A stretch of 23,812 nt of DNA. It comes from a virus. Below the pieces are notes generated by a model. The model was not told the DNA's origin. It searched no databases and worked only from the letters and a program-made list of their open reading frames with translations. The DNA is taken from the IMG/VR virus record IMGVR_UViG_3300039053_000002, positions 1 to 23,812 of that record; one strand, 5' to 3'. The first letter of the stretch is position 1. Each line of letters begins with the position of its first letter. This document shows positions 8,701 to 23,772 of this stretch, one piece after another. The translations under genes and the position numbers were made by a program.

Positions 8701-8997
8701 TTGCAGGTTTGTGGCGAGGTTTGGGCTGTTGCCGAGGTAATTCTCTTCCCGGCGGGGCGTCCGAGCGCCAAAGATTTCAACGTCTACATCCGTGACGCTT
8801 GAGGTCAAAACAATAGAGGCGTCAGTCGAAACCCCATTGTTGAACTTTCCCGAAACGGAATAGCCGGAAGTGATCAATTCCCCATCAACATAGACTTCCA
8901 AGTCTTCATCGCCATAGATAGGGAATGGGATTTCAAACTCAGTCGTGGGAACAACCGGCTCGTATTTAAAGTAGCGTGTGGAGACAGCAAGAACCAT
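5728..8997 (-). CDS. Tailspike with T7 gp17-like anchor and pectate-lyase-like beta-helix
   Basis: The start is the ATG at 8997 (MVLAVSTRYFKYEP), with AGAGG 8 bases upstream; the TTG at 9012 is less likely. The product has 1089 residues. Residues 1-150 resemble the T7 gp17 tail-attachment domain: beta strands, then the helical NLQEDLDRITAVQQEHARELDR segment. Residues 165-235 look like a second adaptor domain (TGDGTTVDFAIGQTV). A pectate-lyase-like entry motif at about 321-337 (DQFG, GTVNDTAAV) opens a long repetitive beta-helix with NGLYVSNCNL-type turns. This is the plan of glycan-binding or depolymerising spikes. Catalytic residues cannot be assigned by eye. It has its own promoter-like element 49 bases upstream. 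Confidence 0.85.
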   Translation of the reverse strand: MVLAVSTRYFKYEPVVPTTEFEIPFPIYGDEDLEVYVDGELITSGYSVSGKFNNGVSTDASIVLTSSVTDVDVEIFGARTPRREENYLGNSPNLATNLQEDLDRITAVQQEHARELDRTIRAGIGEGFEVEPGDDEQFLQWSGGKLINVDLGNSASGGDAGLVKNILRSHTGDGTTVDFAIGQTVTSAVHVLVNWEGRTVLSSEYALHPTDNSILRFNEAPPDGSSFEIRSHAPISSDISMLSDLGTAGPWDDAEEALKARGACFDTRAEGVTYSQTAFAQILGDGATFTANNRVYQRKMGATDITDMPGWVPFGHVVFPDQFGDGFDGTVNDTAAVRLCFFYANENGLLVSYSGLPYANTEADGWIVVNTHFNIAGCELKAVNGLEDTPASHTVNTMYHVYNADTPLVTGNVATPAADGSLVGDYTAGSTRPTADFCRHAGYAYIQGSGGTGPNISNRYKDGLLSYRQSFAIGVNARTLQPLSVDMTAETEIYYKYRLMPLRGRIEIVGGTVDTDTFNNQEIFRIERNNVRIGNMQFMQKDGDADPDTINRLIKIYSAAYVQIDDVVAHAQQDGGDGGGTYVFNFEDFAEVRMHNCTATEGWGAMGTNNGNGLYVSNCNLNRVDFHNGGHNYFVSDSTVYNRGVYLGWGGGTLQITNCKWIDAPVVNFRTDYGGYFYGNIIVDGVEGSNHSFVWTIVDATTNPVGTEVISAPVARSITVRNITRTDLDSNGDNREIIPVSITVNSGASMIAPIAPSNIHIENITGAGNWRFQCLIDYQNMVLPADTDNCTLNIINAKATRTNFTGLGIQFPTQYAGAAAGVGDYRVQLRVTDSTKMSISVDEHPKVDVYVYDTDINRIVTPDDADVEVDGGTMENPQLIGAETHSVVGGAKSGVGYTSIRNVKVQGIDASSGWDFSNVENMVGVDIPKVTTNDGIIYPSGCDRRQAYLGWMNDVSNGEITNCYLADAQDPVAASPTPVTGFYSISQGIATITINAIYNMDASTVTSADTVRIQLPEVLTAANAASKEQFVNVLTQQLPHIGTYFVKTRANSNYLELYRQQTGDDVSVKWADVSGLGADIRGFTIHMVL

Positions 8998-9045
8998 GTG
9001 GAGACCTCTCAATTAAGGCCATTTTCCCGCTTTACTTGCTGCCCC

Positions 9046-9056
9046 CGCAATGCACC
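9046..9056 (-). promoter_or_regulatory. Late promoter-like element, copy A (before tailspike)
   Basis: Exact GGTGCATTGCG on the minus strand, in the 63-base gap between the large ejection protein gene and the spike start codon, 48 bases from the ATG. It is followed by GGGGCAG. T7 has promoter phi17 at the same place before its fibre gene. Its role as a phage polymerase promoter is inferred from position and recurrence. Confidence 0.6.
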
Positions 9057-9060
9057 TAGA

Positions 9061-12000
9061 TCAGTCGTTCACCGTGTCCTTGAAGGTCCGCGCGACTTGG
9101 CCGGTCATATCCATGATTTGAGCGATAGGATGGTTGTTATAAGGGAGCGGGCGCAGAAGTTTCTTGGCATCCCGTTCCGTCATTTTCCCCGTGCCCATCG
9201 CCGTTACACCTTCGATCAGGCCAATCCCCATATCAACACTCGGGCCCAACGTACCCATTGCCATAGACCGCCCCATAAAGCGCGACGTTGGTTCGCCAAG
9301 GGTCATGCCGGTTGTGGGGCGCAAGGCAGCGTTCGCAAGCGCCTTTGTCGGCTCTGTAACCTCCATGAGAATGCCGGTCACGCCCGATCGATCCAAGGCG
9401 TCGAGCCATAGCGCCGACCCCTCTTTTTGCTCATATCCGCCCATGCCCGCTTTGAAACGGGAAACCACCATGCCCAGAGTCACCGCCATGAGAAGTTGAG
9501 ACAGAACGGCCCCATCAGAGCGTTGCAGGCCAGACAACAGAATGCGGTGATGTGACGACACTGCAAAACTTTTGAATTGCGAGAAGAACTTGCCAGCTTC
9601 GCTTGAGAACGACAGCGGCTTATCCTGGCCGGGAGTGATAACCATCAAGTCCATTTCTCTGTTCATGGCTTGCTTGAAGGCGGTGAACGCCTCTGCATCA
9701 TCCCAATTCGCGCCCTTCGGCAGCCACAAATGGCCTTCCATATCGCCGTGTTGCTGAACCTGCTTTGCGATACGAACCGCCATCTGGCGATCAATGCCGT
9801 TTTCTGAGAGTTTCAAAAGCTGGCTTTTCGTCACCGTATCATCAGCCACGGCCATTGCCGCCTTGGACATTTTCGACGCCGACATTGCCCCGCCGATGGT
9901 CTTCCATGCGACGTTCCAAGGCACCATGCCAGTGCCGACACCAAAGCCATGCGCCAGCTTATCAAGGCCTCGTTCAAACTTGCTGTTCCGGCCATATGGC
10001 TCGAACACTTCGAACATCGATGTGGCGCGAGAGTTAAGATACCATTCCGCCGCGGACCCAAGTTCAAACTGATCATCCAGTGCCATTTTGAACCGCTTCG
10101 GATTGGTGATTGCGTCCATTGGCCCGAAAGCAGCCTCAAGCCCGTTCCGTCCGATCATGCCGGCAACGTCAGGAATTGCCGAAAGCGTCATGCCCCCGAG
10201 ATACCCCATGTAGGACAAAGACCGCGCGATACGGCCCCCGCGCACCCATCCATCGTTGGGATCATTTGGCACACCATAAACGCCTCTGATCCGTTCCATC
10301 ATCCCTTCAAGGTCTTTGACACGCTGTTCAAGTTCCTCTTTCAATGCGGTTCGCTCTTTCTCGGATTTGGCGACACGCCGCTTGACGTCGTATTCGTCCC
10401 GAATTTTGAGATATGCCTCGGTACTTCTGAAATCCACACCGCCGAATTGGCGCGTCAATTCAATATCCGGCAGCATCGAATTGAAGTAATGGCCCATGAC
10501 GTCTTGGACGTTGGTATTCAGCCACGGCAAAAGAAGATCATCAGACACGTCTAGAGTTCTGGCGCGTGTTGGGCTGGAAAGAGATGCACCATAGCTGTGC
10601 TGCCCCGGTTTGAGCCCCAAGATTGCGTTTACCGCATCGTCCACCGCGTCGGTGATTTCCAGATCATCAAGGCCAGCGTAATACTCATCAGCCGATTGGG
10701 CGTCCTTTGCCTTTTTCAGTTCTGGGATGATCTGTTTTAGTTCCTCTTGCGCCTCACTGATTTCATCAGCCACCTTGGGACCGATCACCTCTTCCAGTTC
10801 CGCGAGCCGCGCCTCTACGTCTTCCAGACGTTCCACCGCCTTGAGCAATCTCGCCTCTGCCCCGCCTTCGGATTTACCGGCGCGCTTACTGGATTTGTTG
10901 GCTTCACCAGCCTTGGCCCGAGTAATCTTCTGACGGTTGGATTTGCCCGGAAGCTGGCGAATGATCTTTTCGATAGGTTGATCTATGTCAATTTTCAATT
11001 CATCCATCGCCGCGAGAAATTCTTGCGCCGCTTCAAATCGACTGAGTTCAACGCTGTCATAAATCGAATAGACCTTTTCACCCCGGGCATTGTTCGACAG
11101 GGCGTCCCAGAAATCCGCCTCTGTTGACCCTTCCGGCAGATAGCCGAGTTCTTCCATCGTCGCCCGCATATCGTCAGCATGCATCCCATCTGGACGCTTG
11201 ACGGTATGAGAGGAACTATCCAGAGCGGCCTGCAATTCGCCTGAACCATCATCGCGCAGACCGCCCATGCGACGAACCAAGGAAAGCATATCTTCCGGCT
11301 CATTCTTTTTCGCACCGCGAGCCTCTTTCAGCATCTCCTTAAACGCCGCGAGTTCGTCACCTTCCATCAAGGTTTCTTTGAGGTTGTCGGCGCGATCCTT
11401 GAAAATCTTTCGCAGCGATCCGGTAACGCGCCCCACGGCCTCTTCACGCTTAATCGCGGATTTAGCCCGAGCCTTTTTGTCTTTGGCTTTCCGCATGGCC
11501 TTGTTGAATGCAGTGCGCGCCGTGCGCCCCCGCTCTTTGGCCTGGTGCTTTCGCCCTTCCAGCTTTGACACGGTATCATCAAAGGCCAACCGCTCTTCGG
11601 CCTCTGCCCGTTTGCGCTTAAATTCGCGATCCAACAAAACCGTTATGTCGTTGTCCGTTCCGTCGCGAACATGGGCGGCGATCTTCTCACTGTTGTAGAC
11701 GCGGCTCAGATAGCTTTCGCCATACTTGAGTTGCAACCCTTCATCAAAAATGCCGACGTCGATTGCGTCTTGTTTGATCTTGTCGAAAATCTCTTTCCGA
11801 ATTTGCTGCGCGGCCTTTTCAACGTGCGGATTGAAATGCTTATCCCCGGAGAACATCGCCTTTCCGACTTCCTCCATGAACTCGACAGACGACCACTTGC
11901 CTTCCTTTCCGATCAAGGATTGGGCATTTGCCTTTATCGGGGCGGTAATTCGAGAGATTGTGCCAACATCACCATCATTGGCATATTCCGCAAAGGCCCT

Positions 12001-12975
12001 ATTCAGGTGGCCCATCGCGCTCGAGAGTTCTGTGTTCCGGCGCGTCTTCACTATGGTTTCGACAGAGGCATTCAAGCCCCCTGCCCGTTCACCAATTTCA
12101 TTCACCCGCCATTGGAGAGGGGTTTCAGCGAGTTGCGAAAGGGCCGAGCGAACTTCCATGAGATCCGAAAGCTGCGTCCGCAATATGGGATCAGTCCGAA
12201 CAACACCGCGCAGAACCGGCGTCTTGTTCACCCACTGAAACATTTCTTCACGACGCACGGTGAAATCCGAGTCGTTCTTTGCCGCGCTCAGGCTTTGCAA
12301 GTGACCATCAAATTCTCTTACGGCGTCGGGCAGTTGTTCGGCCAGTTTGGCGTTGGCCGCGAACTTACGCCGCGACATTGCCCCCGCACCCGAGCCAAGC
12401 ATGCCCCCGAGGATTACGGATCCGCCGATGGCAAATGCGCTTTCCATTTCCGTTCTGGTTGCTTGTGACTGATGCAGCGACACTTCGTCCGCCAAGGCAG
12501 CCATACCGGCCCACGCGCCCACATTGGCGGCTGTACGTGCCACGTTCGCCCCTTTCGCACCCTTTGCCACCGCACCGCCCGGCAGGAGCGTAGAAGGCGA
12601 GAGCATCGCCGCGCCCATAGATGCCAGCATGCCCCACCCGCCGGCAGCGTCCAGAGTTGAACGGTCTTCAATTTCCCGATCGATCTGCGCTTTCATACCG
12701 TTGACCTGTTCGCGGTTGCGCGCCTCGACAAAGCGTTCGGCATAATCCTCGTACTTGGTGCCCTGAATGTCTTCCCAGGCGCGATAGGTTGGATCACGCG
12801 GGACAGACCGATCATATTCAAAATCGCTCAGTTCCGAGATCACAGGGCTTTCAAGGCGAAGTGCGGCCCCCATTGTTTCACCGACCCCCGCGCTTTCGGT
12901 TTCGGGGCGCTGAATGCCAAACCCCTCCGGCAGCGCCAGAGGGGAGAAAGCATTGTTATTTTCTTTGAAAGGCAT
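9061..12975 (-). CDS. Large internal virion (ejection) protein, T7 gp16-position
   Basis: A 1304-residue protein, nearly the length of T7 gp16 (1318), directly before the fibre gene as in T7. It has AAGGA upstream of the ATG and lies 3 bases after the preceding stop. Two Gly/Ala-rich hydrophobic regions lie near the N-terminus (about 110-170 and 180-200) and another near the C-terminus (around 1160-1200), suiting a protein that inserts into host membranes. The middle holds a very basic helical stretch (around 480-530, many Lys and Arg) and a long coiled coil (around 700-770). I see no transglycosylase motif here; that domain is in the neighbouring protein. Known family role: forms part of the inner core and the DNA ejection conduit. 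Confidence 0.78.
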   Translation of the reverse strand: MPFKENNNAFSPLALPEGFGIQRPETESAGVGETMGAALRLESPVISELSDFEYDRSVPRDPTYRAWEDIQGTKYEDYAERFVEARNREQVNGMKAQIDREIEDRSTLDAAGGWGMLASMGAAMLSPSTLLPGGAVAKGAKGANVARTAANVGAWAGMAALADEVSLHQSQATRTEMESAFAIGGSVILGGMLGSGAGAMSRRKFAANAKLAEQLPDAVREFDGHLQSLSAAKNDSDFTVRREEMFQWVNKTPVLRGVVRTDPILRTQLSDLMEVRSALSQLAETPLQWRVNEIGERAGGLNASVETIVKTRRNTELSSAMGHLNRAFAEYANDGDVGTISRITAPIKANAQSLIGKEGKWSSVEFMEEVGKAMFSGDKHFNPHVEKAAQQIRKEIFDKIKQDAIDVGIFDEGLQLKYGESYLSRVYNSEKIAAHVRDGTDNDITVLLDREFKRKRAEAEERLAFDDTVSKLEGRKHQAKERGRTARTAFNKAMRKAKDKKARAKSAIKREEAVGRVTGSLRKIFKDRADNLKETLMEGDELAAFKEMLKEARGAKKNEPEDMLSLVRRMGGLRDDGSGELQAALDSSSHTVKRPDGMHADDMRATMEELGYLPEGSTEADFWDALSNNARGEKVYSIYDSVELSRFEAAQEFLAAMDELKIDIDQPIEKIIRQLPGKSNRQKITRAKAGEANKSSKRAGKSEGGAEARLLKAVERLEDVEARLAELEEVIGPKVADEISEAQEELKQIIPELKKAKDAQSADEYYAGLDDLEITDAVDDAVNAILGLKPGQHSYGASLSSPTRARTLDVSDDLLLPWLNTNVQDVMGHYFNSMLPDIELTRQFGGVDFRSTEAYLKIRDEYDVKRRVAKSEKERTALKEELEQRVKDLEGMMERIRGVYGVPNDPNDGWVRGGRIARSLSYMGYLGGMTLSAIPDVAGMIGRNGLEAAFGPMDAITNPKRFKMALDDQFELGSAAEWYLNSRATSMFEVFEPYGRNSKFERGLDKLAHGFGVGTGMVPWNVAWKTIGGAMSASKMSKAAMAVADDTVTKSQLLKLSENGIDRQMAVRIAKQVQQHGDMEGHLWLPKGANWDDAEAFTAFKQAMNREMDLMVITPGQDKPLSFSSEAGKFFSQFKSFAVSSHHRILLSGLQRSDGAVLSQLLMAVTLGMVVSRFKAGMGGYEQKEGSALWLDALDRSGVTGILMEVTEPTKALANAALRPTTGMTLGEPTSRFMGRSMAMGTLGPSVDMGIGLIEGVTAMGTGKMTERDAKKLLRPLPYNNHPIAQIMDMTGQVARTFKDTVND

Positions 12976-12978
12976 GGG

Positions 12979-15735
12979 TCATTCCTTTGCTTTGCGTTCG
13001 AAACGGTCAATTTCCGTTTGGGGATTGAACAGGCCGGGGTTCTCACGAGCGTAATTGCGGCCAAGGTCGCGCATGTGCTGCATGTATTTTTCATCACTCG
13101 GGACGTCGTTTTTCTTAAACTCTGAGGGATCGAAGAAGAAGCGATCCGGCAGCGCTTCAAGAACACCGTCCTTCATGTAGAAAAGCTGATAGCTTGTCTT
13201 GTCGTTTGACGTGGACTCTCGTCGAGTTTGGGCGTCCGAAACCAAGTATATGTCTTTGGCCTCCACCCAATTCTTGTGATATTCCCCCGCGTTGGTTTGC
13301 CCGCCTTTCCGCGCGAGGTCTCCAAACACATGTTCGCTGATTTCCTTCTCGATTTGGGTCTGCATCCAATCGTGTGAACCGTCAATTGGCGGGTATGCCG
13401 CTTGCAATTGCGGTGGATACTTCATGATACGTCGATTGCCCGTCACCGTGTTTGGCGCATAGATGCGGCCCAGATCATCAAGCGCACGGGTTTTCGCGCG
13501 GCTTTCATCGCCGGTTTCGATAAACGCCTTTTTGAACAGGGTTTTGTATTCCCCCATCATGGCCTCTTCGACGTAATCCGGCATCAGGTGTTCAACGCTT
13601 TCCTGCCCGTCAATCCCAATCGTCGGATCAGAGAACCAAGAGCTGTCATGGAAAGACACAATGTCGGAAATGTCCAAATTCTCCGCAAGGCTATCCGCCT
13701 CTTTGGATACGTTTTTCGGAACCTCTTTCCGGGCTTCGATCATGCGCGAACTTGCGGTTGTCGCATCACCAAATTCAGCAAAGGTTTTGTAATCGGACAG
13801 CGCGTTGAGCAATTCCTTGCTCTTGGCATGGTTCGTGAAGGCCGAGGGATGAGCCTGCATCAGCCCGTTCGCGACTTCCATCGCTTGCGCGACCTCTTCG
13901 GGATCATCTGAACGAACACCTGCCACGAGCGCGTTGAACATTTTCGTTGGCGCCTTCCCCGTTCTGTCCGTGAATTGAACGGCAGTCGAAATATGCTCTG
14001 GGTCTGATAGCGGATTTGCCCCGCCAAGAGATGCCTCATAAACATCATCGACGCGCGCGCTTACCTTTTTGTCGGCCATATCCAAGAACGCATCAGGGTT
14101 ATTCAGTTCCGAAAGCGTTTTCTGAATTTCAATTTTGCTCTTGTTCGCCTTTTCGAGTTGGGTCACGAGTTTGCGTTGCGCCTCATCTGAAAGGTTGTGA
14201 TCTTCCAGGATCTCTTGCGAAGTCAGCGTATCGTCAGCGTCAGCCATGCGGGTTTCATATTCTTGCGCCGAGAATTGTTCGAACCGGTTGCGCACAGCGA
14301 TTTGCTCAGACAGCGCCTTTGAGGCCAGAGCCATCAATTCCCGATCATCAATTTGATCGATCACGAGTTGCTGTTGCGCCATATCAGACGCTTTCATAGT
14401 CATTTTCCGCGCGGCCCAAACCTTCGCATCATGGACCGTCATGCCCTTTAGAAAATCGTTAGATGAAATCGTGTCTGCCGACACAAGGTCAGACACAAGA
14501 GCGCTCGGGTCACTCTTGAGCAGTTTCACAGCACCGCCAGCACCAAAGAAATGCGCCATGTATTCCGTGGCCGGATTGATTGGCAGCCCCGCATTGCTCA
14601 GAGCCATTTGGTTTTCACGCCGGAAATGCTGGTACATCTCGGATGATTTTGCGCGATCCGCGCGCAGTGCTTGTATCTGCCCCTCTGACAGCCCATTGGC
14701 CCATTCTGGCTTATACTTGTTCACCAATGATGCCCAAGTTCCTTTGAGGAATTGGTGCGGCCCGTATGCAGACGAATTTGGGTTCTTTGCGTTTGCACGG
14801 CCAGCACTTTCAACACTGATCACCCGGCCCTCAACGGACCCGTCAGTCAAGCCCGCAACGATACCGGCAGCGTCTATCCCCTTCATGCGCCCTTGCGTCA
14901 CCATGTAGAGTTTTTGGCGGGTTTTGGGATCAATGTCGGGATCAGACAGAAGGGTTTCGATTTCCTTGCGCTGTTCATCGCTGATCGACGTCGCGCCGAC
15001 CAAGCCGCTCAGTTCTTGCGTCAGCTTCGCCGCTTTTGCCGCCCCTCTTGTGCCGCGCAAAAACGCCTCTGTTTCCGCCGGAGTTTCCGAGATGTAAGCT
15101 GTGTCCGCACGAAATTCAGACAGGCGGACCAGTTCGGCATATTTTTCCTCTGCGGCTTCAAGATCACCTCCTATAACCAGGTTGATATAGTCGTCGGACA
15201 GCATGTCCCGCTGCGTCTTCGAGTTCCGGTTTGCTTCGGATTGGTCACGCTGAACCTGCGAGCGGTATAGGCCATTGAACCGAGCGCTGGCCTCACGTCG
15301 CGCGCTTGATGCAATATCTTCCCGCAACAGCGCCGGTACGCCTTCCTCACCTTCGAGAGAACGCACGTACAAATCAGAGGCTTCTTTGAAACCGGATGGA
15401 TCAAACTGATATTTGATTGCGAGTTCGGTCATGGTTTCGCCGGTGTCGATTGACCGTTGCGAAAGGAACTTGGCATAGGCTGCGCTGTTGTGGGCGCCGG
15501 CAAGTTCGCCGCCGAGAAGGCTCTTGTTATCGACCTTGAGTTGTCCGTTCTCATCGCGATAGACCGAGTTCAGACCGTCTTCTTTGGCCTGTTCAACGGC
15601 AGCCGGACGAACAACATCTTCCCCGACTTTCGCGAGGTCAGAGATTGCCTTCCACGCAAAGCCGGACCCGGTGTTGGCTTTGGCCGCGACCTGCGAAATG
15701 TTTTTGCGCCGGATGATTTCAGGGATACGTGCCAT
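12979..15735 (-). CDS. Internal virion protein with lytic transglycosylase domain (gp15-position)
   Basis: A 918-residue protein. Residues about 301-430 form a goose-type/SLT-like transglycosylase domain: VISVESAG with probable catalytic Glu309, then SSAYGPHQFLKGTW, and NPATEYMAHFFGAGGAVKLL, a form common in phage virion lysins. Flanking regions are long, soluble and helical. The enzyme would open a small hole in peptidoglycan during injection. Position matches T7 gp15, although in T7 the transglycosylase is at the N-terminus of gp16. ATG overlaps the upstream stop by one base (TAATG). Confidence 0.83.
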   Translation of the reverse strand: MARIPEIIRRKNISQVAAKANTGSGFAWKAISDLAKVGEDVVRPAAVEQAKEDGLNSVYRDENGQLKVDNKSLLGGELAGAHNSAAYAKFLSQRSIDTGETMTELAIKYQFDPSGFKEASDLYVRSLEGEEGVPALLREDIASSARREASARFNGLYRSQVQRDQSEANRNSKTQRDMLSDDYINLVIGGDLEAAEEKYAELVRLSEFRADTAYISETPAETEAFLRGTRGAAKAAKLTQELSGLVGATSISDEQRKEIETLLSDPDIDPKTRQKLYMVTQGRMKGIDAAGIVAGLTDGSVEGRVISVESAGRANAKNPNSSAYGPHQFLKGTWASLVNKYKPEWANGLSEGQIQALRADRAKSSEMYQHFRRENQMALSNAGLPINPATEYMAHFFGAGGAVKLLKSDPSALVSDLVSADTISSNDFLKGMTVHDAKVWAARKMTMKASDMAQQQLVIDQIDDRELMALASKALSEQIAVRNRFEQFSAQEYETRMADADDTLTSQEILEDHNLSDEAQRKLVTQLEKANKSKIEIQKTLSELNNPDAFLDMADKKVSARVDDVYEASLGGANPLSDPEHISTAVQFTDRTGKAPTKMFNALVAGVRSDDPEEVAQAMEVANGLMQAHPSAFTNHAKSKELLNALSDYKTFAEFGDATTASSRMIEARKEVPKNVSKEADSLAENLDISDIVSFHDSSWFSDPTIGIDGQESVEHLMPDYVEEAMMGEYKTLFKKAFIETGDESRAKTRALDDLGRIYAPNTVTGNRRIMKYPPQLQAAYPPIDGSHDWMQTQIEKEISEHVFGDLARKGGQTNAGEYHKNWVEAKDIYLVSDAQTRRESTSNDKTSYQLFYMKDGVLEALPDRFFFDPSEFKKNDVPSDEKYMQHMRDLGRNYARENPGLFNPQTEIDRFERKAKE

Positions 15736-16172
15736 TAACTTTTACCCCAACTGGAATATTCGCCGTATTGAGCGAGAGGAACAGCCGCCTTCACAAGGCC
15801 CGTGCCGAGCGACCACTTGGCCGACGATCTGGACGATGCTGCCGCTGATTTGTAGTTTGCAGCCTTTTGCCGATCATCTGCCCGAGAAATGAGCCGGTCA
15901 CGATCTGACGCATCCCGACGTTCAGCAAAGAGGGCCATTGCGTTCGGGCTGGTGCTTGATAGCCCATTGGCCCCGCGGGCTGCCCTGACGCTACTCTCTG
16001 CCCGCAAAAGGTCTTCACGCGCCAAGGTGTCGCGCTGCAACGCCTGCGTTTCCGCCAGGCGGGCGTTGAGTTCGTTTTGAGCGGCATCATCCATTGCCGC
16101 GCCATAGTTGGAAACCGCACTGGCCCCCGCGCTTGCAACTTGTGTAACAACCAGTGCTGTTATCGGGTCCAT
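15735..16172 (-). CDS. Internal virion protein, T7 gp14-like position
   Basis: A 145-residue protein: hydrophobic Ala/Val-rich N-terminus (PITALVVTQVASAGASAVSNYG), a long Ala/Glu/Arg-rich amphipathic helix region, and the motif SSVRAARGANGLSSTSPNA that is common in small phage internal proteins. T7 gp14 is slightly longer (about 196 residues) and forms the outer-membrane channel for ejection. It is coupled to both neighbours by one-base TAATG overlaps and lies between tail tubular B and the transglycosylase protein, as gp14 does in T7. Confidence 0.75.
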   Translation of the reverse strand: MDPITALVVTQVASAGASAVSNYGAAMDDAAQNELNARLAETQALQRDTLAREDLLRAESSVRAARGANGLSSTSPNAMALFAERRDASDRDRLISRADDRQKAANYKSAAASSRSSAKWSLGTGLVKAAVPLAQYGEYSSWGKS

Positions 16173-18385
16173 TAAACCACCACCCTATATCCTAGTTTCG
16201 TCAACATGAGCGGCCCCGGGCGCCCGCGCGTAATCTCGACCCGCTCATAGGATTCAGCGCCCAAGAAAGACATTTTGATCTGTGTGCTTCGCAAAGGTGG
16301 CGGGGTTGTCAAATCTTCCGACGCGAAAAAGTCACCGTATGGCCGACCATTCACCTCAAAAACACCAGTGCTGTGAACCGTCACAAACATCTGGATCAGG
16401 CGTTTGATCTCACGGACGCCCCGTTGCGTTCTGACAGACCTCCGCGACCAAGGCACGATCATGATGGGGAAGTGCAAACCGATCTGCGCGAACCCGTCCA
16501 CCCCACTCGGGTAAAGGATTTCATCGCCGCTACCGTCTTCCGGCTTCCCATTGTTGTTGATCACATAGTCGCCAACATCGAAACCTTCGAAGTAGACCTG
16601 ACAGGTGTGCCCTTTCACCTGAAATGCAGGGCTTGTCGTGACGCCGAGGTATTCCCCGCCATAGGTTCCAGACGGGTAAAACTCGTTCACTTCCGCAAAG
16701 GACGCGCAATCCAGAACGCACCCATAAACGAACCGCTCCGAAAAGCGATATTCCACGCCGTTGATTGTTCGATCGACAATTGCGCGAAGTGTTCCCGAGG
16801 CCTGATAAATCGCCTTGAACTCGCCTTCTGTTGTCCAAGGGCGCCATGAGATTATGTTTTCTGTCCGGTCCCACTGAGCGACAGCAGCCGTTCCATCTTC
16901 CATCGTCACAATGACCAGCAATTCGGGACGCTCATGCCCTGACGATGTTGCCCCGAGATAAACCGGCGTTCCGATCACATGGGGCGCATATCGCGAAATC
17001 GCTTCCACCCGCCAGCTTCGGTACACATCGCCGGACAAAACGGCCGCATGAACCTGGTTGCCCGTTGCATCCACAAAGACCGCGCCATCATCGACTGCAA
17101 CGGGGCGGATTTTCGAAGAGCCAATTCGGGAGAAGCGCACCGGACGAATTGTTTCAGGCGTCACTGCCGACCCGTCGCGCGTCAATTGGTAAAACAGGCC
17201 CCGAGATGTGAAGAACAGCAGATCTTCGGCAGAAATGATATGTTGGATTTCACCACCGGCATCTGCGGAAATCGCCTCTGCGAACCCGTCACCGTCGTTT
17301 ATGCCCGTCGAGAAGTCGTAAATATCCTGAGAGGCCGACGCGGCAAAGGCCAGCGGCAATTCTGGAAATCCGCCGAGGAACATGCGCCCACCGTGCCGAG
17401 CAGACGTGCCCGGATAGCCATGTATCGGGTTCCACATCTGCATATCCCAGAGGTATGTTGCGGCCTTGGTTGTCGCAGCAGTAACGGACGTCATGTTGCT
17501 GGCGGCGTTTGGCCCCACCAAGTCTTCCGACGTGGCAAACCCCGTGAAATTCGTTGTGACCAGAACAGTGATGGTTGTCCCTGAAATCTCTGTAATCACG
17601 CCCTGACCGCCGGACGCTTCGGCCTCGACTGCATCACCCACCTGAAACCCAGAGGCATCCGCCACGACCAAATCCATTGTGGGCGGCAGTTCTTCGATCA
17701 CGGTTGCATTGATCACGGTTTCGGACAGGCGAGACCCGAGAAGAATTTGCCGATCACCATACCGGATCATCACCCCGTTATGATCTGTTGACCAGATATT
17801 GTCAGACGCCGTGATCGTGATGGATCCGGTCAGCGCGCTTGGCTGTATCGTCACATCGCGGTAATGCCGCCAGAATGGCAGGTTATAGGCGCCGGCAGCC
17901 GTTGTTGAGAACGGGAAGTCAGAAAGCGACCACGACCCGCTACTTTCCGACAATTGTTGCGTTGGGAAATACTTCGAGCCGATCAGGATGGACGATGTGT
18001 CGGGATCAGGGATCAGCCAAAACTCAATATCGTCATAATTCGGGTTGCCGTACCCGCCGGTCATATTGGCCCAATCGACGCCGGTAATGGTGCCGATTGC
18101 TTTCGCCTCGCCGGGGATGAAGATTTCCAAACCGTCGCTATTGATCACGACTTCATAAATTCGGGCATCACTGAATGGTGCCTCAAATCCGTGGGTTCCA
18201 AGCACATCGTTCAGATATGCCGTGCCTGGCCGGCTTTCACACTGGCCTGTTGAAAGTGTGATGGTGTTGCTGGCTTCCAGCGTTGATTTTTCGATCAGGG
18301 CAATATCGTCACGCTCTTCCGCTTCGGGGCGGATAACGCCGAGAGAGAAATCATTCTGCCAGATTGTTTCCTTGCGGCCCGCCAT
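16172..18385 (-). CDS. Tail tubular protein B (T7 gp12-like tail nozzle)
   Basis: A 737-residue beta-rich protein. The N-terminus follows the gp12-family pattern: NDFSLGVIRPEAEERDD, then SNTITLSTGQCESRPGTAYL with the conserved RPGT at residues 52-55. Later segments (RHGGRMFLGGFPELPLAFAASASQDIYDFS) match the blade-type repeats of this family. Length is close to T7 gp12 (794). It builds the nozzle of the short tail below the tubular A ring. One-base TAATG overlaps tie it to the tubular A gene and to the gp14-like gene. Confidence 0.85.
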   Translation of the reverse strand: MAGRKETIWQNDFSLGVIRPEAEERDDIALIEKSTLEASNTITLSTGQCESRPGTAYLNDVLGTHGFEAPFSDARIYEVVINSDGLEIFIPGEAKAIGTITGVDWANMTGGYGNPNYDDIEFWLIPDPDTSSILIGSKYFPTQQLSESSGSWSLSDFPFSTTAAGAYNLPFWRHYRDVTIQPSALTGSITITASDNIWSTDHNGVMIRYGDRQILLGSRLSETVINATVIEELPPTMDLVVADASGFQVGDAVEAEASGGQGVITEISGTTITVLVTTNFTGFATSEDLVGPNAASNMTSVTAATTKAATYLWDMQMWNPIHGYPGTSARHGGRMFLGGFPELPLAFAASASQDIYDFSTGINDGDGFAEAISADAGGEIQHIISAEDLLFFTSRGLFYQLTRDGSAVTPETIRPVRFSRIGSSKIRPVAVDDGAVFVDATGNQVHAAVLSGDVYRSWRVEAISRYAPHVIGTPVYLGATSSGHERPELLVIVTMEDGTAAVAQWDRTENIISWRPWTTEGEFKAIYQASGTLRAIVDRTINGVEYRFSERFVYGCVLDCASFAEVNEFYPSGTYGGEYLGVTTSPAFQVKGHTCQVYFEGFDVGDYVINNNGKPEDGSGDEILYPSGVDGFAQIGLHFPIMIVPWSRRSVRTQRGVREIKRLIQMFVTVHSTGVFEVNGRPYGDFFASEDLTTPPPLRSTQIKMSFLGAESYERVEITRGRPGPLMLTKLGYRVVV

Positions 18386-18999
18386 TATCGCGCACCACGC
18401 TTATACGGCGCGCGGCGAGCCCTCATAAGCCGACCACCCCCACGCTTCATGAGTGACGTCTTGCTGCGGTTCTTTGAGCCTTTGATGCTGGCTTTGAAGA
18501 AGAACGCCTCTGCCTCGCTACTCTTGAATGCGCCTTCCTCGGGTTCTTCGATCACGTTTTTAATGACCGCTTCCAAAGCGCGCTGAACCCCGAGAGCGAA
18601 GTTCGCGGACCATGTGTGTTCTTCGCCTTCCCGAACATACTCGATTTCAATTGTTCGAGCGTTTGCGTTCACCAGCAGAGCAGGGACGCTCAGATCAAGT
18701 TCCCATGCCTCTTGAATGTCGGACGCCGAGACCTCGTTGAAATACACTTCGACCACATGAACCACCCCATCAGGCAGCGTATATGAGTCCTCGTAACCAA
18801 AGGTTCCGGCAGAGCGCGATGTGAGTGTTGAACGGGCCTTTCCGAAAGGAAGTGCCCCCGAAGCATCTTCGAAAGCGGCACGGACTATCTCATCATAGTT
18901 CGCGTCCATCGCTTCATAGATGCCAGTCTTATCCGCCGGACGGTGCCCGGTGTGATAAAGTGCTGCGTTGAACAGCGTTTCTTTTGATCGAATAGCCAT
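18385..18999 (-). CDS. Tail tubular protein A (T7 gp11-like head-tail adaptor)
   Basis: A 204-residue protein, near the length of T7 gp11 (196). Features are an N-terminal helical start (KETLFNAALYHTGHRP), a central FGYEDSYTLPDG strand-turn, a helix with WSANFALGVQRALEAVIKNVI, and a very basic C-terminus (GGGRLMRARRAPYKRGAR). It forms the ring between portal and nozzle. It is the first gene after the terminator and the third promoter-like element, and the tubular B gene follows with a one-base overlap. The GAGG before the ATG is only one base away, so ribosome binding is poor or uses another signal. Confidence 0.75.
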   Translation of the reverse strand: MAIRSKETLFNAALYHTGHRPADKTGIYEAMDANYDEIVRAAFEDASGALPFGKARSTLTSRSAGTFGYEDSYTLPDGVVHVVEVYFNEVSASDIQEAWELDLSVPALLVNANARTIEIEYVREGEEHTWSANFALGVQRALEAVIKNVIEEPEEGAFKSSEAEAFFFKASIKGSKNRSKTSLMKRGGGRLMRARRAPYKRGAR

Positions 19000-19028
19000 G
19001 CCTCAAAATCGCGAGATGCGGCTTTTCT

Positions 19029-19039
19029 CGCAATGCACC
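19029..19039 (-). promoter_or_regulatory. Late promoter-like element, copy B (before tail tubular A)
   Basis: Exact GGTGCATTGCG on the minus strand, 29 bases before the tubular A start, and four bases after the T-run of the intrinsic terminator. Transcription stopped by the terminator could restart here for the tail genes. A 6-bp hairpin (19011-19031) begins in its last three bases. Confidence 0.62.
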
Positions 19040-19043
19040 CCAC

Positions 19044-19073
19044 AAAAAAAGGCCCCGCGATAAGCAGGGCCTT
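19044..19073 (-). terminator. Rho-independent terminator between head and tail genes
   Basis: On the minus strand: stem AAGGCCCTGC, loop TTATC, stem GCGGGGCCTT, continuing into a run of seven T in all (19044-19050). The GC-rich stem is 8 bp with one G-T wobble, extended by two A-T pairs. It lies 25 bases after the stop of the last head gene. T7 has its terminator Tphi just after the capsid gene, so position supports function. Confidence 0.88.
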
Positions 19074-19098
19074 GTCTATATGTGATCACTCGCAGCGA

Positions 19099-19464
19099 TC
19101 ATTCGTCGTCGGGTTCTTCATCCATTGAATCAAGAATTTCCTGCATCTTGATCTTCACCGCTTCGCGAAGACGTTCAAGCTGAATGCCCTTTTTCACGGT
19201 GATGCCAAGCGACGTTGCCGCGATAACAACTTGCTCTTTCGACATTGTGGCGATGGATTGACCGCCGACCTTCAAATCAACTTCCCCGTCGTATTCCTGT
19301 TGGATCTCATAGAGACCTTTGGAATTTTTCAGGTTTTCCATTGCGGTTCCGTAGGGAACTTTCAGAGGGCCGGTTTTTTCGGCAGCCTTATATTCGTCTT
19401 CCGTGAACTTGACGTCGCGAAAGGATTTAGGCTTTGCGCAAACTGCGATTGTGACCATTTTCAT
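19099..19464 (-). CDS. Small acidic protein with SAP-like C-terminal motif
   Basis: A 121-residue protein, last of the head block. The N-terminal half is mixed alpha/beta. Residues about 74-111 (MSKEQVVIAATSLGITVKKG, then QLERLREAVKIKM) look like a helix-extension-helix of the SAP/HeH type, often found at the end of small phage head proteins. The last ten residues are strongly acidic (DSMDEEPDDE). It lies one base after the cement-like gene and just before the terminator, so it is probably produced with the coat. The exact function is unknown; head completion or decoration is likely by context. Confidence 0.68.
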   Translation of the reverse strand: MKMVTIAVCAKPKSFRDVKFTEDEYKAAEKTGPLKVPYGTAMENLKNSKGLYEIQQEYDGEVDLKVGGQSIATMSKEQVVIAATSLGITVKKGIQLERLREAVKIKMQEILDSMDEEPDDE

Positions 19465-19465
19465 G

Positions 19466-19894
19466 TTACACGTTCCCCAACACAGACGAGAAGCAGCCGA
19501 GGCCGATCGATGGCGACGTGCCGGCGGCGATCAAACGCAAACGAGCGTATTGATATTTGGCGCCGTTGTATTCGGTTGACCACATGATTTCAGCGGTATC
19601 GCCAACGGCGGTATCCGGGGCGCCCGATTGACGGACTTCCGTTGCGCCGAAATCGGCAACCGCAACAGCTGCGGCGACGGTTGAAAAGTCATCATCCGAC
19701 AGTTCGCAAACCACTTGGTAAAGTTCATCATTCGCGCTGATTTTGCACGATTCAATAGTTACCAGTGTGCGATATGCCGTGCGTGACGCCGCACGTTGGG
19801 TGATGGTGTCGAGAACGGCAGTTGCCGTAATGGCAGCCGATCCTAGAGCGCGATGCTCTAGGCGGCTGTCAAATGGGTGTGTCATATTTTGCAA
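19466..19894 (-). CDS. Probable capsid cement/decoration protein (Bbp16-like)
   Basis: A 142-residue beta-rich protein. The pattern SRTAYRTLVTIESCKIS, YQVVCELSDDDFST and YARLRLIAAGTSPSIGLG resembles the jellyroll cement proteins of Bordetella phage BPP-1 (Bbp16), which trimerise on the outside of the shell. This is pattern recognition from memory. Position right after the major capsid gene agrees. Two starts are possible: TTG at 19894, with AGGAGG at the ideal distance of about 8 bases, or ATG at 19885 (MTHPFD), for which the same site is about 16-17 bases away. I prefer the TTG. Confidence 0.62.
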   Translation of the reverse strand: MQNMTHPFDSRLEHRALGSAAITATAVLDTITQRAASRTAYRTLVTIESCKISANDELYQVVCELSDDDFSTVAAAVAVADFGATEVRQSGAPDTAVGDTAEIMWSTEYNGAKYQYARLRLIAAGTSPSIGLGCFSSVLGNV

Positions 19895-19935
19895 GGGAAA
19901 ACCCTCCTATGATTGCCACGCTTGCAGCGTTTTGG

Positions 19936-20910
19936 TTATGCCACGATTGCGGCGTCAGAGATCGAAGACAGGCGCATGATGGAATACTCGTCTTCGACTG
20001 TAATCCCTTGGTCCCATTCGAACAGATCACGTTCGAAGATGCCGCGATCTGTATCGACAGGCAGGAACTCGGGCTCGGAGGTCTGGATGCCGCACAGGCC
20101 ATCTTCGCGCAGCGAAACCAGATAGAGCGAAGTTGTCACAGCGGACCCGCCACCATATGCGACCTCGTTGAACGGCAGGAAGGTTGAACCCTTCGAAACG
20201 TCGTAGCCGATCAGAATTGGCAGTTCACCGAAGCGGAGGACGCGGCGGCCAAGCTGGCTATCGTAATCATCCGTGAAACGGTTGTTGGTCAGGCTTGGGT
20301 TACGCGCAGCGGCCTTGAACTTGGTACGCATGCGGCGAGATGCCAGCCAGTGAGAAGGCTCCGCAACCAGGTCTTCGCATTTGTCCATGTTGGACAGCGA
20401 GAGAGCCGCGCCGCCAGACGACGTGCTGTTTGCAATGAGGCGGGAATCGTCGGTTGATCCATCGACATTTCCGGCAGCATCAGCAACGCAGCGCTTTTTG
20501 AGGCCATTCCATTCTTTCGGATCAGACGAATTGTCGCCATTGATAAGCGTGTCCGTCCACACACGGGCGCCGTTTTTCATCTGGCCCTTCATGTAGGTGA
20601 TCCGCTTGCGCTGGCCGTAGCGCTTCAATTTGATCCGGTCAAATTCGATCAGACCCGAGATTGGGGCGCAAATGTCTTGGAATGTTTCTTCATCGCCGTA
20701 GCTGATTTCCGGCTCTTGGTTCAGGGCACGGAACGCAACATTCGGCTCTGCGGTTTCGCGATCAAAGCGGTTCACGCCTTGGCTTGCCGCCTTAAACGAC
20801 ATTGCCGCCAGAATGTCCGAAGATGCAGCAAAGGTTTCAATCATCCCGCTTGCGGTTGGGTCAGGTAGACCCTTGGCAAACTCGACAAGGTTAATGAGAT
20901 CGTCAGCCAT
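19936..20910 (-). CDS. Major capsid protein (HK97-fold coat, not the T7 gp10 type)
   Basis: A 324-residue protein with a strong AGGAGG site. The sequence order fits an HK97-fold coat: an N-terminal region, an extended-loop region with basic strands (RIKLKRYGQRKRITYMKG), the WNGLKKRC motif after the TLINGD helix, a Pro-rich helical core (SLTNNRF), and C-terminal beta strands (GRRVLRFGELPILIGYD, TSLYLVSL). The WNGL motif is common in coats of the P22/BPP-1-like groups. The gene follows the scaffold gene and precedes the cement gene. The exact family needs profile searching; the role as coat is well supported by context. Confidence 0.82.
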   Translation of the reverse strand: MADDLINLVEFAKGLPDPTASGMIETFAASSDILAAMSFKAASQGVNRFDRETAEPNVAFRALNQEPEISYGDEETFQDICAPISGLIEFDRIKLKRYGQRKRITYMKGQMKNGARVWTDTLINGDNSSDPKEWNGLKKRCVADAAGNVDGSTDDSRLIANSTSSGGAALSLSNMDKCEDLVAEPSHWLASRRMRTKFKAAARNPSLTNNRFTDDYDSQLGRRVLRFGELPILIGYDVSKGSTFLPFNEVAYGGGSAVTTSLYLVSLREDGLCGIQTSEPEFLPVDTDRGIFERDLFEWDQGITVEDEYSIMRLSSISDAAIVA

Positions 20911-20937
20911 GACAGGCCTCCTATTTTAGTTTGCGCT

Positions 20938-21666
20938 TTACTTTGCGCGTTGCGATAGGCCGAGTTCCAATCGTTCATCGACCGACATTTCACCGTAATT
21001 CATCGCCTTTGGTGCTGGCGTTACGGTTGAGTTGTGTTCTTTGAGAAGAGCCTCTAGGCCGCGCACCGCATCAGCCGACGTCAAGCCATTGAGAACGGCA
21101 TTGGCGAGCGGGCCTGGCATTTCCCGTTGAAGGACACCTTTGATCGTATCAATGCGCGATTGTGCGTTCTGCCCGAGTTCCTTCATTTGCTCCGCGGCTT
21201 CGGCTTGCGCGGCCATGTTCGAACGCAGTTCGCGGTTGACCATCAGGCCGGTGATTTTCTGCATAGCGTCTACGGGTGTCATTTCACCTTGCGCGATGCC
21301 GTGCATCATGGCTTGCAGTTCGGGAAGGTCGGGGTCTTCGGGGTTGAACATTGAGGCCGGATCAAACTCGACGGTGTTCCCGTCTTCATCCGTATGTTTC
21401 AGTGACTCGGGGTCGAAGCCTTCGATCAGTTTGAAATCTTCCGGCAGAGAAAGCGTGTATCCCTCTGGCCCTTCCGGCAGCGCGGATTTGGATTCATCGT
21501 ATTGCGCGCGGAACGAGGCCAGTTCATCAAACGACGAGCGGAACGAGGCAACGTCATAGGAACCGTCTTCACCTTTGAAGGTGTCGGGAACGAAAGACGA
21601 AAAGTCTGGTGCCGCATCTGGTGTTGCGGGTGTTTCATCTGGGGTCTGAGTTTCGGTATCAGCCAT
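20938..21666 (-). CDS. Capsid scaffolding protein
   Basis: A 242-residue protein starting at the ATG at 21666 (MADTETQTPDETP), with AGGAGA 10 bases upstream; the in-frame GTG at 21729 lies inside the promoter-like element and is unlikely to be used. The first third is acidic and Pro/Glu-rich, the middle and C-terminal parts are helical (MTPVDAMQKITGLMVNREL; AEAAEQMKELGQ), with a short basic end. This is the usual make-up of T7 gp9-like scaffolds. It sits between portal and coat genes and would be lost before maturation. Confidence 0.8.
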   Translation of the reverse strand: MADTETQTPDETPATPDAAPDFSSFVPDTFKGEDGSYDVASFRSSFDELASFRAQYDESKSALPEGPEGYTLSLPEDFKLIEGFDPESLKHTDEDGNTVEFDPASMFNPEDPDLPELQAMMHGIAQGEMTPVDAMQKITGLMVNRELRSNMAAQAEAAEQMKELGQNAQSRIDTIKGVLQREMPGPLANAVLNGLTSADAVRGLEALLKEHNSTVTPAPKAMNYGEMSVDERLELGLSQRAK

Positions 21667-21976
21667 TTGATACAAGTCTCCTGAGTTCGAGGATAAAATT
21701 GCGGACGGCGTTCTCTTCACGCAATGCACCGTCCGATGTTCCGTTTGGCATGGCGGAAAACAGGGTTGATTTTTCGAACAATTTCAACACCCTAAGCCCT
21801 GCGTCGGTTGTGAAGGTTTCGATAATGTCAGCTTCGAGGCCTTTGGCGTCTTCCGCGCCATTCTCGCCGTTTTGGCGCATCCACGTCAGATAGCGGCCCA
21901 AAGGAGAATGGTGGAATTGCTCATTCCTCATGCTTTTTAGATAGCGATCTTTCACGCTACTGCGGATCCCCGTCAC
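21659..21976 (-). CDS. Small helical protein between portal and scaffold genes
   Basis: A 105-residue protein; GTG at 21976 with AAGGGG 6 bases upstream overlaps the portal gene by 20 bases. A GTG at 21955 (one base after the portal stop) is an alternative. The sequence is helical and charged (HSPLGRYLTWMRQNGENGAED; DGALREENAVRNFILELRRL) with no membrane part. Its stop overlaps the scaffold start by 8 bases. The third promoter-like element (copy C) lies within its coding sequence as the DGALR codons. I do not recognise the family; position suggests a head-assembly accessory. Confidence 0.65.
   Translation of the reverse strand: MTGIRSSVKDRYLKSMRNEQFHHSPLGRYLTWMRQNGENGAEDAKGLEADIIETFTTDAGLRVLKLFEKSTLFSAMPNGTSDGALREENAVRNFILELRRLVSNG
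21720..21730 (-). promoter_or_regulatory. Late promoter-like element, copy C (before scaffold)
   Basis: Exact GGTGCATTGCG on the minus strand, 53 bases upstream of the scaffold ATG and inside the 3' end of the preceding small gene. It is followed by TGAAGAG. A 7-bp inverted repeat (21702-21708 with 21729-21735) encloses most of it. T7 has promoter phi9 before its scaffold gene. Confidence 0.58.
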
Positions 21977-23480
21977 TTGGCGCCCCTTGCTGTTGTTGTT
22001 GCATTTGCATCATGGCCTGCATCACTTCCTCTTGAGTGCGGAACGTGACCAGTTTGTCTTTCAGCTTGTCTTTGATGTTTTTCATCGACGTTGGCATATC
22101 GATAAGGACCATTGATTGCTCCGGCCCGACAGACTGCACGGTCATATCGATGATCGACTGTGAAACCATGACGTCTTCTCGGGCTTGAGCCCGTTCAAGC
22201 GGAGAGATTGGCCGAGGCGCCACGACGCCATTTTCAATCATTGGCAGCTTTACGCCATCAAGAAGCCCGCCGCGTTGACGCTCGAGAAATTCCAAGCGTT
22301 CCAGAAGGCCGACGCCAAATTCGCGCCACAACTTGCCAGCTGGCCGCGCGATACGGCGCAATTGCTTTTGTTCTTGCCCGATATACTGCGAAGCGGACGG
22401 GGGCGTTTTGCCCCTCTGTTCGAGTTCTCGGTAAAACCCGTTGTTCAGAACCTCTTCAAGTTTGTCCTGAGAATGGAAGTTCTGATCAAGGTGTTCGACG
22501 GTGCCAATCGCCTTGATGCTTTCCGCTGAACCAGGTGCAGAAGGATAGGTCATGCCGCTTTCAATGCCATCCGAAAGGTCAAGCATCCCGTCATGCGGGT
22601 AGGTGTAGGCCGGATCAAGGTTCCTATCCATGCCTTCCAGCGTCATTTCTGTGAGCGCGTTCAGGACGCGGATTGTGGGCAGCATCCGAAGGCCGGGACC
22701 GCGGCCCCAAGGTGATCCTGGCTTCGGATTGAACCGGCCAACAACCATTGGCATCTCGCCTTTGGCTTTCAGGTCTTTATCAAGCCCGATAGCGTCCCCT
22801 TCAACGCGGATTTCTGCGCGCCAGATAGGATTTTCTGGGTCTTCATATGTGGGCCAGAAGCCCCAAACCACATCTGACCGGCCATTTTTGGCGTTTTTGA
22901 TTTTGTCTTGCAGCTTTTGGGGCCATTTGGCCTTTGGGAAAAGCGCTTTGAGATCTCGGGTGTAATACGACTTTTTGCGGAAACGGTCTGCAATGCCGTG
23001 CGGCCCGATGGTGAGGTATGTTTCGGGCATTGGGATTGCTTCGCAAACGGTGTTTCCGTTCAGCGTTGGGCGTTCCACCCACATTGCGACGTTGCCGATC
23101 ACGGCGTCCTGAAATGCGGTCTGGCCTTCATCGTAATAGTTGGAACGGGACAGCGCTTTGTCCATCGTCTTTTCGTACAGGGCCAAATCCTCTTTGGCTT
23201 GCTGTTCGTCGTCCTCTTCGATTGCGGCCCCGGCTTCGAACTCCACCCAAGACGCATTTTCGGGCGTCATTGTCGAGAACAGCTCCCCGTAGAAATCTTC
23301 TGCGAGCGTGGCCGGCACGTCGGTGAAAATCTCTTCTGGATCGTAGGTTTTGGGCTGTGTCGCATCCCATTCGGTTTCACGGCCATTGAAGCAGAACTTG
23401 TAGACTTCCCGCGCTGGCCCTTCGATTTGGGCTTGTCTGATTTGTTTTGCGGCGCTGAACCGGTTTCCGAACTCATCCAT
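21957..23480 (-). CDS. Portal / head-tail connector protein (T7 gp8-like)
   Basis: A 507-residue protein, close to T7 gp8 (536). The N-terminus is helical; the segment FYGELFSTMTPENASWVEFE resembles the wing of podoviral connectors. The motif PWGRGPGLRMLPTIRVLN (from residue 257) is the conserved portal signature of T7-like connectors, followed by a long helical region and a Gln-rich tail (MQMQQQQQ). It forms the dodecameric ring through which DNA is packaged and ejected. It begins 3 bases after the stop of the small pre-portal gene. Confidence 0.9.
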   Translation of the reverse strand: MDEFGNRFSAAKQIRQAQIEGPAREVYKFCFNGRETEWDATQPKTYDPEEIFTDVPATLAEDFYGELFSTMTPENASWVEFEAGAAIEEDDEQQAKEDLALYEKTMDKALSRSNYYDEGQTAFQDAVIGNVAMWVERPTLNGNTVCEAIPMPETYLTIGPHGIADRFRKKSYYTRDLKALFPKAKWPQKLQDKIKNAKNGRSDVVWGFWPTYEDPENPIWRAEIRVEGDAIGLDKDLKAKGEMPMVVGRFNPKPGSPWGRGPGLRMLPTIRVLNALTEMTLEGMDRNLDPAYTYPHDGMLDLSDGIESGMTYPSAPGSAESIKAIGTVEHLDQNFHSQDKLEEVLNNGFYRELEQRGKTPPSASQYIGQEQKQLRRIARPAGKLWREFGVGLLERLEFLERQRGGLLDGVKLPMIENGVVAPRPISPLERAQAREDVMVSQSIIDMTVQSVGPEQSMVLIDMPTSMKNIKDKLKDKLVTFRTQEEVMQAMMQMQQQQQGAPSDGDPQ

Positions 23481-23483
23481 GCA

Positions 23484-23663
23484 TTACACCAGAGATTGAC
23501 CGGCGGATTTGCCGGTTGCGATTGAAACTCGTGGGGAACGCAGCTTTTGATAGACCTTGGTTTGCCCTTGCAGGTATTCCTGCATGGACGTCCGGTTTTC
23601 GCGTTCAGCAATCAGCCGTTGTTGCTTTTGCTCCGCGGTTTCCGTTGGTGTCGAGGGCTTCAT
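23484..23663 (-). CDS. Small pre-portal protein (position of T7 gp6.7/gp7.3)
   Basis: A 59-residue basic, hydrophilic protein: MKPSTPTETAEQKQQRLIAE at the start, Gln-rich helix in the middle, and a Ser/Gly/Lys-rich end (VSIATGKSAGQSLV). GGAG lies 9 bases before the ATG. T7 has two small virion-related proteins (gp6.7 and gp7.3) just upstream of its portal gene, also with basic Ser/Gly-rich ends, so an analogous minor virion role is plausible but unproven. Its promoter-like element (copy D) is 53 bases upstream. Confidence 0.7.
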   Translation of the reverse strand: MKPSTPTETAEQKQQRLIAERENRTSMQEYLQGQTKVYQKLRSPRVSIATGKSAGQSLV

Positions 23664-23772
23664 TTAGCAAAACTCCGTCATAATCACGAAGAAGATCAGC
23701 CAGAAGCGTGTCTGGCCGCAATGCACCTGACCGGATGCCGAGGACGTGTTTTACAAAACTTACGCAGGTCAT
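23605..23772 (-). CDS. Possible small ORF at right edge overlapping the pre-portal gene
   Basis: A 55-residue frame starting MTCVSFVKHVLGIRSGALRP and ending ATTADC. Its ATG overlaps the stop of a frame entering from the right edge (ending PETFSNQ), an ATGA junction like others in this genome. Against it, the last 59 bases overlap the better supported pre-portal gene and give a low-complexity tail, and no ribosome-binding site is visible. The promoter-like copy D lies inside it, coding for GALR. Confidence 0.35.
   Translation of the reverse strand: MTCVSFVKHVLGIRSGALRPDTLLADLLRDYDGVLLNEALDTNGNRGAKATTADC
23717..23727 (-). promoter_or_regulatory. Late promoter-like element, copy D (before pre-portal gene)
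   Basis: Exact GGTGCATTGCG on the minus strand, 53 bases before the ATG of the pre-portal gene. It is directly followed by a 6-bp hairpin (GCCAGA, loop CACGCT, TCTGGC; 23699-23716). T7 promoter phi6.5 has a similar place ahead of genes 6.7-8. Confidence 0.58.

Follow-up and report, generated by a model that had tools for sequence, protein, structure and literature searches.

A conserved bipartite element ahead of the late genes of Roseobacter-group podoviruses: candidate promoters for the host RNA polymerase

In T7 and SP6 (Autographiviridae), one short late-promoter sequence is repeated 5' of the portal, scaffold, tail and tail-fibre genes, and a terminator lies past the capsid block. The elements described here share this layout; unlike the T7/SP6 promoters, they are bipartite with wobbling spacing, initiation is predicted about 40 nt from the core, and no single-subunit polymerase was found in the relatives searched. 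A second described class is the sigma-70 promoter activated at its -35 region, as by lambda CI at PRM, lambda CII and T4 MotA. Here the likeness lies in a spacing near 17, extra conserved sequence overlapping or next to -35 and a candidate phage activator with a CI-type XRE fold, and the difference in a motif of its own, repeated at each late block of a T7-like map, and an activator that is putative.

A broader podovirus relationship has been described for Sulfitobacter phage PhiGT1, with related phages placed within a major metagenomic podoviral family, in a paper in which the word promoter is absent (PMC10386132). XRE-LuxR-LuxI lysogeny modules are reported for Phaeobacter inhibens prophages (PMC13345283, preprint); two relatives of the present phage also carry LuxI/LuxR genes, whereas the P. 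inhibens prophages are Mu-like and myovirus-like, and the available portion of the preprint contains no late-promoter data.

A repeated 11-mer at late-gene junctions

The window, a 23.8-kb IMG/VR fragment, contains four perfect copies of GGTGCATTGCG on the - (late) strand (9046-9056, 19029-19039, 21720-21730 and 23717-23727) and none on the + strand, as an earlier note on this DNA had reported. Counting all 11-mers of the window, we found GGTGCATTGCG to be the sole one with at least four same-strand copies. Of 300 dinucleotide shuffles, 4 contained an 11-mer with at least four copies (p ~ 0.01 over all 11-mers). Hence, at a shuffle rate of about 1%, the repeat is suggestive from the window alone, not decisive; a chance origin is settled against by conservation in the sequences of relatives.

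Ten viral contigs and one prophage, in Ruegeria sp. EL01 (Roseobacteraceae), came out of portal and capsid searches as relatives. All of these have GTGCATTG on the late strand and, as far as the contigs reach, at the junctions where the window has it: 5' of the portal block, scaffold, tail tube A and tailspike. The motif thus occupies identical junctions in 12 genomes, on the late strand throughout, and additional copies lie 5' of the terminase gene (G001, G004) and of a gene beyond the tailspike (G010). Across the relatives, conservation covers the block K-GTGCATTGC-G-R-G-A-A; the first G of the 11-mer varies (G, T, A or C), leaving GTGCATTGC as the true core, and the conserved extension is R-G-A-A-(A), immediately 3' of the 11-mer. 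The A that the earlier note placed at the sixth downstream base is present in all four window copies and is not conserved in the relatives.

The first candidate promoter (box 1, 23717-23727, -) lies within a small coding frame, is syntenic in 11 other genomes and is followed immediately by a small gene (23484-23663, -) whose ORF is kept in relatives, and then by the portal (head-tail adaptor) gene (21957-23480, -; PHROG 332, E=2e-41). The second (21720-21730, -), also in a coding frame, is syntenic in all relatives including G408, and its first downstream ORF is the scaffold-position gene (20938-21666, -, ATG at 21666), so named from position and conservation, with no family match; the major capsid gene follows (19936-20910, -; PHROG 212, E=5e-35). 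The third, an exact copy (19029-19039, -), precedes tail tube A (18385-18999, -; PHROG 394), and an intrinsic terminator (19044-19072, -; hairpin AAGGCCC...GGGCCT plus 7 T) ends directly 5' of it. Most relatives, like lake contig L193, also have a terminator at this place. The fourth (9046-9056, -), ahead of the tailspike/tail fibre gene (5728-8997, -; PHROG 16586), is syntenic in G002, G003, G004, G008, G009, G010 and EL01.

As previously described, two sites fall within coding frames (pre-portal and pre-scaffold) and two are intergenic, and the distance from motif end to ATG is 29-53 nt: 53 for the small pre-portal gene, 53 for scaffold, 29 for tail tube A and 48 for the tailspike, where an in-frame TTG upstream of the ATG lies at 33 nt. 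Where the motif lies in a coding frame, all listed genomes use GCA TTG, codons that are fixed at the pre-portal site, although GCA makes up 20% of Ala and TTG 16% of Leu codons; motif conservation in these coding copies is codon-independent in the aligned sequences.

The host genome of Ruegeria sp. EL01 contains 20 motif copies without convincing extension or second box. Hence, a host regulator with its own regulon is unlikely, and we rejected it.

The second box and its distance to the start codon

About 17 nt 3' of box 1 lies a second box, GATTTT-like in the Roseobacter group and TGC-TTA/TGCTA in marine phages. The spacer from TTGCGR to the GATTTT-like hexamer is 17-18, with the second box at +27/28 and a one-base wobble. 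A box-2 matrix trained on the tail-tube-A copies (GCGATTTT) also predicted box 2 at further intergenic copies, among them those before the tailspike (Fisher p=1.6e-6, for sites that come from related phages and so are not fully independent). In the window, the -10-like candidates are CTGATCTT before the portal block (23692-23699, -; p=0.06 for this copy and, by Fisher test, 7e-13 for the class, though in a coding region), GCAATTTT before scaffold (21695-21702, -; p=0.0007), GCGATTTT before tail tube A (19005-19012, -) and a weak GAAAATGG before the tailspike (9019-9026, -; p=0.26, not significant here, class p=5e-6).

In tail tube A the ATG follows 5 nt after box 2, with no Shine-Dalgarno, and the gene is predicted to be leaderless. 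The GTG-to-ATG distance is 39-41 nt in 13/13 leaderless-type sites from three lineages (tail tube A of ten Roseobacter-type genomes, two sites of Microcystis phage Mwe-JY08 and one of L193), and exactly 40 nt at the Mwe-JY08 and L193 sites. Taking the A of ATG as +1, we found A-11 in 11 and T-7 in 12 of these sites, and essentially no Shine-Dalgarno. In the longer scaffold leader, 12/12 genomes have one. Taken together, the fixed ATG distance, the missing Shine-Dalgarno, A-11/T-7 and the terminator junction fit best with a -35/-10 promoter from which transcription starts without a leader. In sigma-70 terms, two boxes about 17 nt apart and A-11/T-7 are present, and the hexamer match of box 2 is poor, with box 2 weak at the window's tailspike copy. 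A sigma-54 promoter (GG-N10-GC) was rejected; the motif has GG-N6-GC, the wrong spacing.

In the sequences compared, the element is real, conserved, syntenic, strand-specific and bipartite, and lies at a fixed distance from ATG. From synteny, strand bias, the terminator-promoter junction and this positional code at start codons we infer promoter status, and the four copies very probably belong to a promoter family at T7-like positions, a proposal of the earlier note that is strongly supported. A box in two parts with wobbling spacing and a start about 40 nt downstream is, at the level of sequence, the promoter anatomy of a multi-subunit polymerase, not of the rigid T7 type, in which initiation occurs beside the core, and with almost as much confidence we take the host polymerase to read these promoters. 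In the mechanism we propose, K-GTGCATTGCG-RGAA would cover the -35 region, TTGCGR being its -35-like part; a GATTTT-like -10 box would follow about 17 nt on, transcription would begin about 40 nt past the GTG, and the tail-tube-A mRNA would be leaderless, starting on its ATG.

Distant lineages and the candidate XRE helper

The core recurs as GTGC-N-TTG in distant lineages: the N is A in the Roseobacter prophages and T in the lake contig, and both Mwe-JY08 and a large family of marine podoviruses have G. Mwe-JY08 (about 31% portal and 38% capsid identity) repeats GTGCGTTG 5' of its portal, scaffold, tail and tailspike genes; the L193 version is GTGCTTTG. Scanning every viral contig of the collection for the two boxes together gave 115 matches, about the number estimated for chance except for the relatives and contig G408. 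That contig, picked up by the promoter pattern alone, encodes a diverged capsid of the group and has perfect promoters, as a distant relative.

A terminase search returned at least 80 loci, mainly from one marine podovirus family, and about half of those listed have, just 3' of the terminase gene, [TT]GTGC[G/A]TTG accompanied by a second box around TGC-TTA. Among the matches listed, the ratio of late-strand to opposite-strand copies of TTGTGCRTTG is 82:4 in these terminase-chosen loci and 75:5 in loci chosen independently by XRE. In three loci (L260/L262/L263) a variant box GTGAGTTG stands 3' of the terminase gene with the second box TGTGCTTA kept, a natural core variant. Motif-negative marine loci (L246/L248/L270/L265) share no alternative motif of 9 or more bases, and matches at the starts of MCFGG/MCIGG genes (L198, L208, L221) were set aside as coding coincidences. 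A repeated-word search of BcepC6B and Pelagibacter phage Hodr found no comparable motif. We found no description of the motif in the literature searched, which covered few subscription papers; the literal strings GTGCATTGC and GTGCGTTG gave nothing relevant among the matches listed, and little was found there on late-gene timing in podoviruses without their own polymerase.

Poor sigma-70 hexamers, together with 8-10 bp around GTGCNTTG that are near-invariant across distant phages, suggest that a phage protein probably binds the invariant box and recruits host polymerase. On this evidence we consider it reasonably probable that the window copies are upstream boxes of a late-promoter family for the host multi-subunit polymerase, with a probable phage DNA-binding helper. 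The best candidate for the helper would be an XRE-type helix-turn-helix protein of about 160 aa, the sole conserved regulator in the Roseobacter group, whose gene lies just 5' of the small terminase gene, in the order XRE, small terminase, large terminase. It is present in all seven genomes that cover the region (G003, G004, G005, G006, G008, G009 and EL01, two of them near-identical there); the 160-aa protein of G009 is encoded at 21333-21815. In G010 the region lies outside the sequence, as it does in the window, which as a fragment lacks the early region and hence the XRE gene. The group's XRE matches PHROG 1373 (phage transcriptional regulators, XRE) with its helix-turn-helix half (E=6e-9), its N-terminal half falling outside the matched range. 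An AlphaFold model (mean pLDDT 79) has an alpha-beta-beta-beta N-terminal part and an XRE C-terminal part; residues 1-60 of the G009 protein, which include conserved cysteines, resemble, weakly, a HicA toxin fold (Foldseek E about 0.1-0.4).

Conserved XRE proteins are also encoded alongside the promoters elsewhere. The Mwe-JY08 homologue (hhalign E=1.5e-10) is encoded in the corresponding neighbourhood. The marine XRE is shorter and lies on the other strand about 5 kb from terminase, with an invariant recognition stretch SL[IV]HKWEQ[HY]KR[VI]PSGF. Among the matches listed, at least 80 marine loci were picked by XRE alone, and 30 of the 36 long ones contain the motif. Among the listed TerL-selected loci with enough upstream sequence, motif and XRE went together (7/8 versus 0/7, Fisher p=0.0014, in a tally made by hand with one borderline locus). 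This co-occurrence is an association, confounded by shared ancestry. We give XRE somewhat better than an even chance of being the recogniser of the box; that it acts as activator we put at even. Against this role of XRE, it is a common fold, the marine position is also usual for repressors, and an XRE site overlapping -35 could equally be an operator. One locus with XRE and no capsid gene (G068) was discarded as an informative case; it is a prophage-remnant XRE-small-terminase pair amid host-like genes (G068:C1 ~2478982-2479458; joined locus 38518-39472) with a transposase gene directly upstream.

Other readers of the box

That the same promoter family is read by another phage factor (small sigma-like or another helix-turn-helix protein), or by host sigma-70 alone, is unlikely but still appreciable. 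A marine copy ahead of the terminase operon, TTGTGCG-TTGACA followed by TGCTA, plainly shows -35/-10 character in its sequence; this perfect TTGACA with an extended -10 TGCTA means that some copies look like ordinary sigma-70 promoters. However, the invariant GTGC 5' of -35, absent from host promoters, is unlike sigma-70 alone. Several other small helix-turn-helix proteins exist, but their genes are not conserved across the group; an OmpR-type winged-helix protein of G009 was rejected as reader, since a search of the other genomes did not find it. In marine loci L315-L342 a conserved purine run, ATGGGGGGAGAGAGGGAGAGGGGGG, comes after the pre-terminase promoter TTGTGCGTTGACA...TGCTA.

XRE could also be a repressor on the box, silencing late genes in lysogens or early infection, which we regard as improbable. 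XRE proteins are often repressors, and one bound over -35 would block polymerase; but in the Roseobacter group the conserved XRE gene adjoins the terminase genes and is oriented early-to-late, and the box hexamers are weak unaided. Lysogeny itself is expected in the group: the window has a truncated integrase (75-764, +; PHROG 1) and relatives G003, G004, G008, G009 and G010 a full one, hence the group is temperate. G009 encodes a LuxI-type autoinducer synthase and a LuxR receptor (L020, 10824-11405 and 11490-12074, -), and ORFs at 11238-12488 of G008 are similar to them. Hence, lysogeny control in these prophages may be separate from the conserved XRE, plausibly in a module of XRE-LuxR-LuxI type.

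Very improbable is the explanation favoured by the earlier note, T7-like promoters for a divergent phage single-subunit polymerase encoded elsewhere in the genome. Coding-strand copies do stand ahead of late gene blocks, at positions like those of T7 late promoters; past the core, the conserved GRGAAA is reminiscent of the initial transcribed sequence of T7-type promoters, and the window is only a fragment. However, Pfam PF00940 (RNA_pol) matched nothing in the relatives, including 44 kb prophage records, nor in Mwe-JY08, Hodr and 17 further contigs, whereas the T7 control gave E=1e-110; several searched records are incomplete, so that a firm negative is confined to the long records (G008, G009, the EL01 prophage, Mwe-JY08 and Hodr). 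The relatives have no ORF of N4-type virion polymerase size, none exceeding about 1,320 aa. Nor is the element a contiguous, rigid promoter of about 23 bp with its start at the 3' end: it has a second box and variable spacing, and the start-codon geometry predicts initiation at +40, with no leader. Hence, we find no support for the "unseen phage RNA polymerase". A role outside transcription, as a signal for packaging, replication or recombination, is hardly credible. Chi is an example of a short word repeated with a strand bias, but the fixed start-codon distance, the terminator directly upstream and the restriction to a few gene junctions speak against such a role.

Returning to host polymerase with a phage helper, we suggest tentatively, at a confidence a little short of even, that a podovirus clade with T7-like late order, including an abundant marine family, manages without a phage polymerase: one small XRE activator would steer host polymerase to dispersed GTGC-N-TTG promoters, activator and promoter would have diverged together, by one central base in each lineage, and leaderless expression of a tail protein would be built into the promoter. 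Such phages would provide an activator and a promoter that can be tested as a pair, and a case for comparison in which a T7-like gene order is run without T7 polymerase. A shared, readable late promoter is also a late-gene marker for uncultured phages, and it found G408 unaided. In its early region, G009 also encodes an ORF with a Tad2-like domain (Thoeris anti-defence; L020, 14481-15005, +).
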